Assembly (NCBI RefSeq): GCF_000613785.1
Contig: NZ_BAJQ01000001.1
Location: forward strand, 62,001-126,000
DNA length: 64,000 bases
Source: Segatella oulorum JCM 14966
Lineage (GTDB): Bacteria; Bacteroidota; Bacteroidia; Bacteroidales; Bacteroidaceae
Reading direction: 5' to 3'
This document shows positions 9,246-20,394 of this stretch, piece by piece. Both the position numbers and the translations under genes were made by a program. The notes beneath the pieces are model-generated. The model made no database searches, had not been told where the DNA came from, and was given only the letters and a program-made list of their open reading frames with translations. The stretch's first letter is position 1. Each line of letters begins with the position of its first letter.

Positions 9246-10835
9246 ATGAAAAAGCTATTTTCTTATATCGCAGCCACCGTGGTAAGCCTGTCGCTTACGG
9301 GCTGTTTGGACTTAGAACCCACTAGTAGTATCACCGATGCCAACTTCTGGAAGAACGCCGACCAGGTGCAATCTTTCAACCAAGGTCTCCACTCTTTTGT
9401 GAGAGACTATGGCTATGAATACATCATTTGGGGCGAGATGCGCAGCAACATCTACAGCGGAACGCCCTTCAGTGGTGAGGCTTCGCAAGGCTATGAGCGC
9501 TTATGGAACAACACACTTGAAAAGAGTAGTCCTGTAATCAGCAAGTATGGCGGCCTTTACACGGGCATCAATCAAATCAACCTGATGATTGATAAGATTC
9601 ACGAGGCAACGTTTTTGAGCAACGAACAGAAAAACAAATACCTCGCCAGCAGCCATGGTTTGCGCGCATTTCTCTATTTCCAGCTGCTGCGTAGCTATGG
9701 CGATGTCATTCTTTACCTGCAACACACCGAAGGCAACACCGTTGATTTGGACAAAGTAGCCCGCAAACAAGATGCGGCAGCCGACGTGATGACGCAGATA
9801 AAAGCCGACATCCAGGCCTCTGAAAACGCCTACAACAACAACTATTCCTTTGCCGACGGGCGCATGTATTGGTCGCTCGCAGCCACCAAAATGCTCAAAG
9901 GAGAGGTTTATTTGTGGAGCGGAAAGCAGATGGGAGGCGGCACAAGCGACTACCAAACGGCGCTGCAAGCCTATCAAGATGTGAAAAACAATGCCGATGT
10001 TGCATTGCTCAACAACTACAATGACGTGTTTGCCTACGACAAGAAAGGCAACAAAGAGGTGATTTTTGCCTTGCACAACCGTGAAAACGAAACCTCGTTG
10101 TGGAATGGGCTCTACACCTCTTTGGTGATGAACAAGCAGAATGTGAGTGGCTATCGCCTGCACGATGCCGGCGGAAATGCCATCCAATTCAGCCAATCAC
10201 AGTATTTAAACCTCAGCCTTGGCAGCGGAGTGATGCGCTTTCCGCTTGACAAACAGCTGTGGACCAAGCTCTATTTCAACGGCAACGACACCCGCAGAGC
10301 CGGCTCTTTAGCCGATGTTTATGAAAGCGATGGCACCACCTACGTGGGCAACATCTGCAATAAGTTCCACGGAACACTGCTTGCCGGCGGATCGGCTACC
10401 TCGTGGTTCGACGACCAACCCATCTATCGCTATGCCGAATGTCTGCTGGGAATGGCCGAGGCGAAGGTGCTTTTGGGACAAAGTCCGGCGACAGAAATCA
10501 ATCAAATTCGCAGTCGGGCTTATGGCGTTACCTACTTCACTGCTCACCCCGAGGTGCAATATCCCAATGAAAAGAGCACCGGTGGCTCGCCCGCTTTGAC
10601 GGCATTCTACACCAATAATCCCTTTGTTGGTGGCGACGAAACGCCCGAAGAGGCCGTGTTAAAGGAGCGTATGCGCGAGTTTTTGTTCGAAGGAAAGCGC
10701 TGGCACGACATTCGTTTGTTCAACAAAGCCACGCAATATTCCACGGCTAACAGCACGCGTTTGCTCTGGCCTATTGACGAAACAACGCTCTCTACCAACA
10801 ACCTGTTGACACAAACACCGGGCTATGGCGATTAA
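9246..10835 (+). CDS. SusD/RagB family substrate-binding outer-membrane lipoprotein
   Basis: Surface lipoprotein of 529 residues that caps the SusC channel and binds substrate. The N terminus is a lipoprotein signal with lipobox SLTGC (Cys about residue 20), then LDLEPTSSITDANFW, which is typical of SusD. Helical repeat-like segments fill the middle, and the C-terminal part has the family hallmark ERMREFLFEGKRWHDIRLF. It starts 19 bases after susC 1 and is surely co-transcribed. A hairpin at 11006-11039 probably ends the transcript. The frame is intact. The ligand cannot be inferred from the window. Confidence 0.93.
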   Translation: MKKLFSYIAATVVSLSLTGCLDLEPTSSITDANFWKNADQVQSFNQGLHSFVRDYGYEYIIWGEMRSNIYSGTPFSGEASQGYERLWNNTLEKSSPVISKYGGLYTGINQINLMIDKIHEATFLSNEQKNKYLASSHGLRAFLYFQLLRSYGDVILYLQHTEGNTVDLDKVARKQDAAADVMTQIKADIQASENAYNNNYSFADGRMYWSLAATKMLKGEVYLWSGKQMGGGTSDYQTALQAYQDVKNNADVALLNNYNDVFAYDKKGNKEVIFALHNRENETSLWNGLYTSLVMNKQNVSGYRLHDAGGNAIQFSQSQYLNLSLGSGVMRFPLDKQLWTKLYFNGNDTRRAGSLADVYESDGTTYVGNICNKFHGTLLAGGSATSWFDDQPIYRYAECLLGMAEAKVLLGQSPATEINQIRSRAYGVTYFTAHPEVQYPNEKSTGGSPALTAFYTNNPFVGGDETPEEAVLKERMREFLFEGKRWHDIRLFNKATQYSTANSTRLLWPIDETTLSTNNLLTQTPGYGD

Positions 10836-11005
10836 AAAGCATGCAAATTGTGTCGTAAAACAATAGAGATTGCATGGCAAACCGATAGAGATTGCGCGCT
10901 AAAATGATAGCTTTTACCCCACAAAGGAATTGCAAGTGCGAAACCAATCGGTAGCCATCGGGTGGAAAACCCATTAAAATAGGGCCATAAGCTCCACAAA
11001 ACAAG

Positions 11006-11046
11006 GTGCCTGATTTGCCGACATGAGCAAATCAGGCACTGTTCTT
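11006..11046 (+). terminator. Terminator-like hairpin after susCD 1
   Basis: A perfect 13-base stem (11006-11018 with 11027-11039) with an 8-base loop is followed by TGTTCTTTT. It lies 170 bases after the SusD stop and just before the tandem-repeat block, so it may end the susCD transcript. The T-tract is broken, so efficiency is uncertain. Confidence 0.6.
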
Positions 11047-11055
11047 TTGCCCTCC

Positions 11056-11143
11056 AAACGCTGCATCTTTCACTCTCCAAACACTGCATCTTTCACCGCC
11101 AAACGCTGTATCTTTCACCTTTCAAACGCTGCATCTTTTACTG
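11056..11143. repeat. 22/23-bp tandem repeat, four copies
   Basis: Four diverged copies of a unit reading roughly CCAAACGCTGCATCTTTCAC begin their AAAC(G/A)CTG core at 11056, 11079, 11101 and 11124 (steps 23, 22, 23). The reading frame is not kept, so this is non-coding. It is the first of three unrelated tandem repeats between susD and rnhB. Confidence 0.85.
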
Positions 11144-11237
11144 CCTTTGTTAGCAAACAAGGCACCTTCGACCGGCAAAAATGGCACAACAAGATGCTCT
11201 TTTGTCCTCATGATAGCGCATATTTCGACGAAATATT

Positions 11238-11383
11238 AACCCAATTAAAAGTAGGTTAACATTGTTCTTGCGCAAAAACAACCTAATTAAAAGTGGGTTA
11301 ACATTGTTCTTTCCCAAAAGTAACCCAATTAAAAGTGGGTTAATATTTCTCTTGCTCGACAATAACCCAATTAAAAGTGGGTT
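11238..11383. repeat. 42-bp tandem repeat with a palindromic core, four copies
   Basis: The 20-base core AACCCAATTAAAAGTGGGTT recurs at 11238, 11280, 11322 and 11364, exactly 42 bases apart. Its ends AACCCA and TGGGTT are inverted repeats around ATTAAAAG, so each core can form a small hairpin. The 22-base segments between cores are related to one another, not unique. Because 42 is a multiple of three, both strands stay open as 14-residue repeats, but nothing else suggests a gene. Confidence 0.9.
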
Positions 11384-11464
11384 AATATTCCTTCCTATGC
11401 ACGCCAAAAACAAACAGATTGGACGAAAAAGTGGGCTGCTTTAGGAGGCAAATCGGGTGCTTTC

Positions 11465-11829
11465 GAGACAGATTGTGGGTGTGGAAGGACTGAATTAAGG
11501 ATGGATTTGAAACACATTGCGGGTGAGAAAGGATTGAATGAAGGCTGATTTCGAGACAAATTGCGGGTGAGGGTGGGTGGAATTAGAGTTGGTTTTGAAA
11601 CAAATTGTGGGTGCAGGTGGGTTGAATGAAGGTTGATTTCGAGACAAATTGTGGGTGAGGGTGGGGGGAATTAGGGCTGGTTTTGAGACAAATTGCGGAT
11701 GAGGGTGGGTGGAATTAGGGCTGGCCTTGAAACAAATTGTGGGTGTGGAAGGGTGGAATTAAGGCTGGTTTTGGAACAAATTGTGGGTGCAGGTGGGCTG
11801 AATTAAGGCTGATTTTGAAACAAATCGGG
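11465..11829. repeat. 44-bp tandem repeat, eight copies plus a partial ninth
   Basis: Units beginning GA(G/A)ACAAATTG start at 11465, 11509, 11553, 11597, 11641, 11685, 11729, 11773 and 11817, a constant 44-base step. The consensus continues with TGGGTG, GGTGGG, GGAATTA and GGCTGGTTTT. Copies differ at several positions, so the array is not freshly amplified. The last copies overlap the 3' end of rnhB, which takes its final residues and stop codon from the repeat. Confidence 0.92.
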
Positions 11830-12438
11830 CTCGGCAATGAGCTGAAAACTCTTGCGATGCAAGGGCGAAATGCCGTGCGTGAGGATGCCCATGCGGTGCT
11901 TCTTCGTGGGATAACCCACGTTGTGTTCCCAGTCATAATAAGGGTATTGCGCCGCCATCTCGCGCATATAATCGTCGCGAAAGGTCTTGGCAAGGATGCT
12001 GGCAGCGGCAATCGTCTGATATTTCCCGTCGCCTTTCACCACGCAAGTGTGGGGCAATGTGGTGCCTTCGCCGGGCAATCCCTTGCCAACCACGTAGGCA
12101 TCGAAACGGTTTCCATCCACCAAAATGGCCTCGGGACGCACGCTTAACTGGTCGAGGGCGCGGTGCATGGCCAGGAAACTGGCATGGAGAATGTTGATTT
12201 TGTCAATTTCCTGGGGCGTCACAATGCCCACAGCCCAGGCCAAAGCATCCTGCATGATTTGATCACGCAGCGCATAACGCTTGGCTTGCGTGAGCTTTTT
12301 GCTGTCGTTTAGATGGGGGTTGTCATAATTTTGCGGCAGAATAACAGCGGCCGCATAGACGCTTCCGGCCAAGCAACCGCGTCCCACTTCGTCGCAGCCA
12401 GCCTCGATTTTGTCGGTGTAATAGTGTGGAAGGAGCAT
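11803..12438 (-). CDS. rnhB: Ribonuclease HII
   Basis: RNase HII (211 residues) removes ribonucleotides misincorporated in DNA and cuts RNA-DNA hybrids. The acidic catalytic residues are seen as Asp16 and Glu17 in DEVGRG and Asp108 in ILVDGN; KGDGKYQTIAAASILAK and the HNVGYPTKKH block are family hallmarks. It starts 34 bases after sufS and probably lies at the end of the nusA/infB/suf transcript. Oddity: the C-terminal tail (DLFQNQP) and the TAA stop come from the 44-bp tandem repeat downstream, so the end of this gene may vary in length between strains. Confidence 0.95.
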   Translation of the reverse strand: MLLPHYYTDKIEAGCDEVGRGCLAGSVYAAAVILPQNYDNPHLNDSKKLTQAKRYALRDQIMQDALAWAVGIVTPQEIDKINILHASFLAMHRALDQLSVRPEAILVDGNRFDAYVVGKGLPGEGTTLPHTCVVKGDGKYQTIAAASILAKTFRDDYMREMAAQYPYYDWEHNVGYPTKKHRMGILTHGISPLHRKSFQLIAEPDLFQNQP

Positions 12439-17587: not shown

Positions 17588-20394
17588 TTATAACTTCTGT
17601 TCTACTTCTATTTCAGTAAAGGTTTCTATCACGTCACCTTCCTGTATATCGTTATAGTTGACGAGGCTAATTCCACACTCCATGCCCATTGGAACCTCCT
17701 TCACATCGTCCTTATAGCGCTTCAATGCGTTGATGTCGGCCGTGCGAATCACAATGCCATCGCGCACCACACGGGCTTTATCCTTGGCGTGAACCTTACC
17801 CTCGGTGACCAAACCACCGGCAATAGTACCCACTTTTGATATCTTAAACACTTGTTGTACCTCTACTTGTCCGGTGATAACCTCTTTCTTTACCTTGTCA
17901 AGCATGCCCACCATGACACTCTTGATGTCGTCAATAGCATCGTAGATGATGGAGTAAGTGTTGATTTCCACACCTTCGCGGTCGGCCAATTTGCGTGCCT
18001 CTGACGACGGACGAACCTGGAAACCCACGATAACGGCATCGGAAGCACTGGCCAACATCACATCGTTTTCGCTAATCTGACCCACGGCTTTACCAATCAC
18101 ATTCACTTGAACTTTCTCGGTAGAGAGCTTGATAAACGAGTCACTCAAGGCTTCAATAGAGCCGTCAGTGTCACCCTTCACAATGACATTCAGCTCATGG
18201 AACTCGCCTTTCGCAATGCGATGGGAGATGTCTCCCAGCGTGATACGCTTCTGAGTGCGCAGACCTTGCTCGCGTTGTAATTGCTCACGCTTGTTCGAAA
18301 TCTCGCGTGCTTCTTGCTCAGTTTCAAGCACATGGAACTGATCTCCTGCGGTTGGGGCACCATTTAAACCCAAGATAATAGCGGGTTCTGCGGGACCTGC
18401 CTGCTCAATGCGCTGGTTACGCTCGTTGAACATGGCCTTGATGCGTCCCCAACTTGTGCCGGCAATCACCACATCGCCTATCTTAAGCGTGCCGTTACTT
18501 ACTAAAACGGTGCTCACATAGCCACGTCCTTTGTCGAGCGAAGACTCGATAATCGTGCCTGTTGCCTTGCGGTTGGGGTTGGCTTTGAGGTCTAACATTT
18601 CGGCTTCGAGCAGCACTTTGTCTAACAGTTCCTCGACACCTAAGCCCTTCTTTGCACTGATTTCTTGGCATTGATACTTGCTCCCCACTCTTCAACCAAT
18701 AGGTTCATGTTGGATAAATCCTCACGAATCTTATCGGGATTAGCACCGGGTTTATCGATTTTATTGATGGCGAATACCATCGGAACACCTGCTGCTTGGG
18801 CGTGAGCGATGGCCTCTTTGGTGGTCGGCATCACCGAGTCGTCGGCGGCAATGATGATGATTGCGATATCAGTTACTTGTGCACCACGGGCACGCATGGC
18901 TGTAAATGCTTCATGACCTGGCGTGTCTAAGAACGTCACCTTTTGCCCATTCTTCAGCGTTACACTATAAGCGCCGATATGTTGGGTTATCCCTCCGGCC
19001 TCACCTGCAATCACATTGGTGTTGCGAATGTGGTCGAGTAAAGAGGTTTTACCATGGTCTACGTGTCCCATCACAGTCACAATAGGCGCACGAGAGACTA
19101 AATCATTCTCGTCATCTTCCTCTTCACTCACAGCTTCTTGCACCTCAGCGCTCACATATTCGGTCTTAAATCCGAACTCATCCGCCACCATATTGATGGT
19201 TTCTGCATCCAAACGCTGATTGATAGACACCATGATTCCAACACTCATCAACGTGGAGATGACCTGCGTTACGGTGATGTCCATCATCGTAGCCAGCTCA
19301 CTTACCGTCACAAACTCGGTGAGTTTAAGCACCTTTGACTCGCGCTTTTCGGCCTTAGCTTCTTGCTGAAGCTTCTCTTGAACGGCCTCTCTTTTCTCCT
19401 TTCTATATTTAGCTCCCTTCTTATTCTGGGTCTTATTGGTGAGTCGGGCAAGCGTTTCTTTCACCTGACGTGCAACAGCTTCGTCGTCAACCTCCAATGG
19501 TTTCTGATTGCGTTTGTTGCGGTTCTTTTTATTTTTGTTGCGCCCTGCATTGTTATTATTGCCGTTTTTGCCTTGTGAAGCATTGTTGTTCTGCTTGGCT
19601 TCGGCATTAATATCCACGCGTTCTTTATTGATACGCACCCGCTTTTTGCGCTCACCGCCCTGCTGAGCTGTCTTGTCTTCGCGCTCTTTTCGCTTCTCTT
19701 CTTTCGACTTTTTCTTAGGGCGCGTGTTCTGATTCAGCGCATCCAAATCCATTTTTCCTAACACTTTCACGCCAGGGGCATTCTGGATATTCTGCTCACT
19801 CTTCAGTGTATACAGCTCCGTTTCAGCAACATTGTCCTCCTTTTTCATCTCTTCGACAGGAGTTTCAACGGCTTTTTCTGTAGGCTTTTCGGTGGGTTTC
19901 TCCTCCACTTTCTCATCCTTTACAGGAGCTTCGGTAACCTTTTCTATAGGTTTTTCTTCAACTTTAGGAGCCACTTCCTCTTTCTTGGGTTCAGGTTTCA
20001 CGGCAGCAACCTCAACCTTTTCTTCTTCTTTCTCTTCAGGAGCAACAGCTTTCTTAGCCGCAGGTTTCTTTCCTACGCTATCCAGATCAATCTTTCCTTT
20101 TGGCGTATACACCTGCTTTGGCGTCGCTTTCAGCAAGTCTTCTGCACGTGTTTCCTTCGTTTCAGCCGTTCGTTTCTTCTCCTTTGGTTTCTTTTGGAAA
20201 AGCTTTTCGGCTTCAGTACGCACGGCTGCATCTTGCTTAAAAGCCTCAACAAGCGCCTGGTATTGCTGGTCATTGAGTTTAAAACTCAAATCAGACTTCA
20301 CCTCACCCAGTTCACTTTTCTTCTCAAGGAATTCAACTGCCGTTTGAAGTCCTATGTTTAATTCGCGTAATGCTTTATTTAATCTGATGCTCAT
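17588..20394 (-). CDS. infB: Translation initiation factor IF-2 (one frameshift)
   Basis: GTPase that brings initiator tRNA to the ribosome. Repaired length is about 935 residues. Order: IF2 N-terminal domain ([15 protein letters not shown]), a long Lys/Glu/Pro/Val-rich linker (about 85-330) typical of large Bacteroidetes IF-2, a second N domain (about 360-410), then the G domain with [17 protein letters not shown] and NKID, and the C-terminal barrels ending at EVEQKL. The frame breaks at the CCCC run 18683-18686 ([19 protein letters not shown] when one base is restored). As an essential gene with a homopolymer break it is taken as intact in the organism. It follows nusA by 70 bases. Confidence 0.95.

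Follow-up and report, generated by a model that had tools for sequence, protein, structure and literature searches.

A 44-bp minisatellite at the 3' end of rnhB carries the stop codon of RNase HII

In the 64-kb stretch of DNA that we analyzed (the window), rnhB, the gene for RNase HII, ends inside an array of 44-bp tandem units. The array is a real bacterial minisatellite, a fairly ordinary variable repeat with an instructive geometry. We consider it likely that this locus-specific minisatellite multiplied the 3' end of rnhB, and that the length of the enzyme has been kept since the unit includes the stop codon. Our comparison is with Prevotella sp. HJM029, the nearest relative found and the one informative relative in the collections searched; both it and the window genome are draft assemblies, representing two species-level genomes with one genome per species. 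The locus offers a natural case in which a tandem repeat enters a gene and leaves the protein alone, because the repeated segment brings its own stop, and it shows that variable protein length should not be inferred simply from a repeat that overlaps the end of a gene.

A tandem array of divergent 44-bp units in the SusD/rnhB spacer

A spacer of 967 bases separates rnhB from a SusD-family gene, the two being convergent, tail to tail (Table 1). TRF detected four arrays in the whole window, with periods of 22, 23, 42 and 44, and all of them lie in this spacer. The 44-bp array comprises eight full units (W1-W8) and 13 bases of a ninth. TRF, register, lag identity and shuffles confirm the original prediction of a 44-bp minisatellite at an exact step; the coordinates given with it, 11465-11829, found the array itself and missed its ends by four bases, the array in register occupying 11461-11825. 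TRF reports it at period 44 with 7.6 copies (11492-11825, score 360) and at period 88 over the full extent (score 420), and the best score among 300 dinucleotide-preserving shuffles of 11461-11825 was 61. Lag identity is 0.785 at 44, 0.798 at 88 and 0.785 at 132, against a mean of 0.28 (sd 0.05, maximum 0.38) at lags away from multiples of 22.

Table 1. Annotated features of the SusD/rnhB spacer and its flanking genes (window positions)
Feature	Position	Strand	Evidence and remarks
SusD family gene (NCBIfam NanU), convergent neighbor	9246..10835	+	ORF, Pfam/NCBIfam
22-bp array, 2.5 copies	10856..10910	.	TRF; related to other genomic 22-bp arrays; present in HJM029
Terminator-like two-way hairpin, 14 pairs	11005..11040	.	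Consensus scan; between SusD-type gene and arrays; kept in HJM029
23-bp array, 4 copies	11052..11142	.	TRF; about three units shorter in HJM029 (alignment)
42-bp array, 3.6 copies, TTAACCCA...TGGGTTAA hairpins	11237..11389	.	TRF; fold z -3.85; about one unit shorter in HJM029 (alignment)
W1-W8, eight full 44-bp units	11461..11812	.	Register, lag identity, TRF
Incomplete unit nine (13 bp) at the gene-proximal edge; also rnhB coding	11813..11825	.	
Array/rnhB overlap: end of codon 205, residues 206-211 (LFQNQP), stop	11803..11825	-	
rnhB, RNase HII, 211 aa + stop	11803..12438	-	ORF, Pfam/NCBIfam, solved homologues

The eight units differ from each other without any indel. No two are identical; pairs have 30 to 40 of 44 bases in common (mean 77.8%), a divergence of about 20%. 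After the multiples of 44, the highest lag identities occur at 110 (0.447), 22 (0.434) and 66 (0.428), and a 22-base shift of the consensus unit was matched by 201 of 5,000 shuffles, or by 557 when any shift was allowed. The sequence suggests that the 44-bp unit consists of two diverged 22-bp halves and hence had a 22-bp ancestor, in which case the array may have been founded from repeat DNA of greater age. As in a VNTR, the units follow one another directly, each exceeds about 10 bp, and their number at this site differs between related genomes (two drafts). A CRISPR array, with identical repeats and unique spacers, is a poor description of units that are contiguous and homologous over their whole length.

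A structured RNA was also considered and rejected: the plus strand of the array folds no better than its shuffles (z 0.33), and the minus strand folds worse. One G3+ G-quadruplex motif with loops of 1-7 was found in the array, at 11653 on the plus strand. A promoter scan returned 2 candidates where 1.3 were expected, and Rfam identified only a tRNA in the window.

The rnhB gene end and the RNase HII tail

The identity of RNase HII is given by Pfam PF01351 (E 2.7e-39, residues 13-199) and by NCBIfam NF000595, above its cut-off. As had been proposed, the array runs into the gene and writes its last residues and its stop. The TAA, at 11803-11805 in the minus-strand frame, lies inside unit 8, and bases 11806-11825, the end of unit 8 plus the partial ninth, encode the tail from part of codon 205 through residues 206-211. 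These residues fall outside the Pfam domain and are predicted to be disordered; an AlphaFold2 model built with 24 sequences has a mean pLDDT of 91.8 and values under 50 at residues 208-211.

In the rnhB reading direction, unit junctions resemble copies of the gene end, most taking the form (N/D)LFQxQP-stop. The gene itself ends in DLFQNQP-stop, and NLFQNQP-stop is found at W7/W8, NLFQGQP-stop at W6/W7, NLSQNQP-stop at W5/W6, NLFQNQL-stop at W3/W4 and NVFQIHP-stop at W1/W2; at W2/W3 and W4/W5 the reading is NLSRNQPS, with no stop in frame. Counting the gene end, six of the eight window junctions have a stop in the matching place and seven have N or D followed by L. The inner junction of HJM029 reads NLF-stop-DQT-stop, with an extra stop, and its gene end DLFQSQP-stop. 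Two of the 10 junctions in both genomes, W2/W3 and W4/W5, are thus without an in-frame stop.

We propose that the unit corresponds to the last seven codons of rnhB with their stop, followed by about 20 bases of spacer, and that slippage or unequal recombination would add and remove units. With a stop in the repeated segment, the gene-adjacent copy would always end the frame first; extra copies lie beyond it and become 3' UTR, so that tail length is unaffected by copy number, as seen with eight and two units. Copies beyond the stop would probably be close to neutral; as a side effect they would make the 3' UTR long and weakly folded, rich in C and poor in G. The founding event could also have run in the other direction, an older stop being lost so that read-through into repeat DNA created QNQP; this is conceivable because the enzymes of most relatives stop at, or close to, the F of a QLxL(x)F motif.

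The original prediction further held that changes in array length could alter the protein tail, and this part finds no support here: with a six-unit difference, RNase HII has 211 residues in both genomes, and LFQNQP in the window versus LFQSQP in HJM029 is the sole tail difference. A related proposal is that the array tunes the C terminus, changes in the terminal unit switching the enzyme between its short tail and an extension of 44-48 residues. When each of the eight units was set beside rnhB in silico, six gave a protein of 211 aa, and W2 and W4, the units with GAATGAAGG, removed the stop and extended the frame to 259 and 255 aa; the array-written L206-F207 also align with the clamp-motif-like tail of relatives. 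However, neither array-bearing genome has an extended tail, the tail lies outside the catalytic domain and is predicted to be disordered, and eight versus two units coincide with equal length and one substitution. We find such tuning quite unlikely. Judging from the sequence, the tail could change by way of the single gene-proximal unit, rather than through array length as such.

Array length and history in two related genomes

The RNase HII of HJM029 is 98% identical to that of the window, the next relatives found being at about 74% or lower, and 582 of 613 rnhB DNA positions agree. In HJM029 this spacer contains two full 44-bp units together with the same partial unit of 13 bases, and its array is 264 bp shorter than that of the window. 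Copy number is therefore not constant and varies as predicted, with eight units here and two in the one relative compared. The spacer measures 967 bases in the window versus 594 in HJM029, and the difference of 373 bp is the sum of 264 (six 44-bp units), about 67 (about three 23-bp units) and 42 (one 42-bp unit). Sibling arrays of the same spacer likewise differ in length, which supports the minisatellite reading. In HJM029, TRF caught only the 22-bp array, two 44-bp units being too few for it.

The array is confined to this pair among the genomes covered. A genus-wide search with the array matched two of 398 genomes, the window genome and HJM029, and in each of them a single place. Among 28 rnhB 3' ends, those of the pair included, a tandem repeat with a period of at least 18 within 800 bases of the stop was found only in these two genomes. 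The literature matches listed contained nothing on such arrays in Prevotella.

Neither HJM029 unit (H1, H2) is a copy of a window unit. Their best matches are the outer units of the window array, W1 for H1 (37/44) and W8 for H2 (39/44), and H1 and H2 share 29/44 with each other. Pairs within the window average 34/44, below the H1-W1 and H2-W8 values, so several unit types predate the split. HJM029 has probably lost inner units, and the window lineage seems to have copied units later, to judge from its two groups at 40/44, W3/W5/W6 and W4/W8; we infer this history of gain and loss from short 44-base units in two drafts.

Tandem arrays also occur elsewhere in the window genome. In a sample of 760,438 bases, TRF found 65, of which 27 have a period of 40-44 (exactly 41 in 20) and 13 a period of 22. 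A significant hairpin in the unit (p 0.05 or less) is present in 10 of 29 arrays with periods of 38-48 or 80-90, the 44-bp array not being among the 10. Sequences in the 40-44 class differ between loci (for example, L117 13947-14209, L131 17883-18152, L140 18789-19012 and L141 8342-8591), and some of these arrays are related between loci; for the 41-bp array of L140 (5.5 copies), match coordinates imply four fewer units in HJM029. A dispersed 22-bp tandem family with a GCAATCTCTACC-like core occurs at window 10856-10910, L140 11593-11776, L136 7051-7157 and L134 8-58, and some of its members are related by sequence. A further genome, G016 (400,000 bases), has 37 arrays, of which 5 have a period of 41 and 8 one of 22, and HJM029 (335,753 bases, mostly one contig) has 15, with 1 of 41, 1 of 42 and 7 of 22. 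The sharp 41- and 22-bp periods of this Prevotella genome are a general, testable observation. Eight of 25 sampled contig starts (C132, C80, C100, C129, C128, C127, C126 and C124) have a 41-43-bp array within 10 bases, indicating that arrays probably break the assembly.

Another reading makes the rnhB array a member of a dispersed mobile repeat class, either the genome's 41-bp hairpin arrays or a minisatellite MITE resembling BrickBuilt. The period counts given above and the hairpin of the adjoining 42-bp array speak for such a class. However, the 44-bp unit occurs at one place in the genome, its array has no sequence link to other sampled arrays apart from its own flank, and the unit has no hairpin (longest perfect stem 4 bp, p 0.36); on reading the flanks, we noticed no terminal inverted repeats. 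We judge membership very unlikely. An assembly artefact in one draft is less credible still, and we regard it as extremely improbable: both genomes are drafts, in which repeats could be miscounted, and contigs of the window genome do begin in tandem arrays, but units that differ by about 20% should not collapse, and the distinct sequences of the HJM029 units also argue against an artefact.

Transcription, clamp binding and known repeat systems

Locus-specific multiplication of the gene end leaves room for an effect on transcription, since the resulting 3' UTR could conceivably help Rho to end rnhB transcription before the convergent gene. In a stronger form, the repeats act: transcribed from rnhB, they would serve as tandem Rho-utilization modules whose number sets termination. 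On the rnhB strand, C makes up 38% of the array and G makes up 7%; the plus strand contains 140 G and 27 C. Its skew of 0.68 is exceeded by none of 14,921 365-nt windows in the 760-kb sample, in which the next independent place reaches 0.62 (L138, about 19600), and the 150 nt past the rnhB stop have the highest C minus G among 260 gene ends. All 100 shuffles of the minus strand fold better than the strand itself (z +2.48), a Rho gene is found in the genome (605.7 bits, cut-off 509), and the rnhB strand has no other terminator-like site before 11039, the hairpin there being the only one within 10750-11900. By our own simplified 78-nt rut criterion, which is not RhoTermPredict, the sequence from the rnhB stop on qualifies in both genomes, with a C/G of up to 11 (3.71 in HJM029), and only 0.6% of 58,308 sampled windows reach a C/G of 3. 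The second strongly G-skewed stretch (L138, about 19601-19965; 114 G, 27 C) lies beside minus-strand genes and is not a TRF array.

Several observations temper this proposal. Other gene ends (88 convergent and 172 co-directional) show no average excess of C over G (0.004 and -0.002), which argues against a genome-wide rule; the skew may merely reflect the composition of one founder unit that was copied; and in HJM029 only a quarter of the array is present. By the account in PMC6407284, the rut definition is also permissive, giving 23,930 predictions in E. coli K-12. We hold the active role of the repeats as a tentative possibility. The RNA of about 80 nt after the stop, unstructured and with more C than G, has the sequence features of a candidate Rho-dependent terminator, and resembles the rut sites described in PMC6407284 in being C-rich and G-poor after a stop codon; it differs from them in arising as repeats.

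A last reading concerns the function of the tail. We compared 110 Bacteroidota loci (L001-L030, L032-L111), which gave 98 distinct tails after HRx(S/T)(F/Y/W/H). A motif of the type Q(LIMV)x(LIMVF)(x)(FLI), or QLxL(x)F, is present in 69 of the 98, a count somewhat flattered because the pattern was chosen after viewing the tails, and stands at the very end in 39; over 500 rounds of shuffling, the tails yielded 3.3 such motifs on average and never more than 9. The motif resembles the clamp-binding consensus QL(S/D)LF as quoted in PMC3716654, and its occurrence in most sampled Bacteroidota RNase HII tails is a general, testable observation. The window and HJM029 enzymes have EPDLF in its place (window 11803-11840), and relatives mostly end in the QLxL(x)F type where the window enzyme ends in EPDLFQNQP, so the tail is not one shared with relatives that lack the repeat. 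We speculate that in Bacteroidota this C-terminal motif anchors RNase HII to the sliding clamp and that in this pair the minisatellite grew from the DNA coding for the peptide, the motif being replaced by EPDLFQ(N/S)QP, with LF now written by the repeat. If true, the end by which a repair enzyme docks would now belong to a repeat whose units can change, with the stop-bearing first unit limiting the damage. The proposal is unlikely as a whole. The motif is also missing from 29 of the 98 tails. According to PMC11253446, the RNase HII of E. coli does not interact with the clamp, and the literature matches listed named no clamp motif in bacterial RNase HII. Two other genomes of the genus, at L003 and L214, have lengthened RNase HII tails (NTHPSPPEGRE.. 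and NTHPSPPKGRE..), that of L003 coded by a CCCTCCCGAAGGGAGGG palindrome inside the rnhB gene end.

Among repeat systems, the archaeal Borg tandem repeats, as characterized in PMC9879509, consist of perfect copies, unlike the rnhB units. BrickBuilt of Porphyromonas gingivalis is described in PMC4596501 as a 23-nt minisatellite in a MITE, found at 19 places in ATCC 33277 and equipped with a leader, a tail and terminal inverted repeats. It shares with the rnhB array a Bacteroidota host, an intergenic position and variable copy number, between strains in BrickBuilt and between two related genomes here; in contrast to its multiple genomic copies, the rnhB array occupies one locus in the window genome and in HJM029, has a 44-bp unit and overlaps a gene end. 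The closest likeness is to the bacterial minisatellites or VNTRs outlined in PMC2884548, with head-to-tail units of over 20 bp, intergenic placement and copy numbers that differ between related genomes. From that class, the rnhB array stands apart in that its units are old and divergent (78% identity), come from one founder, lie at one place and include a gene end with its stop.
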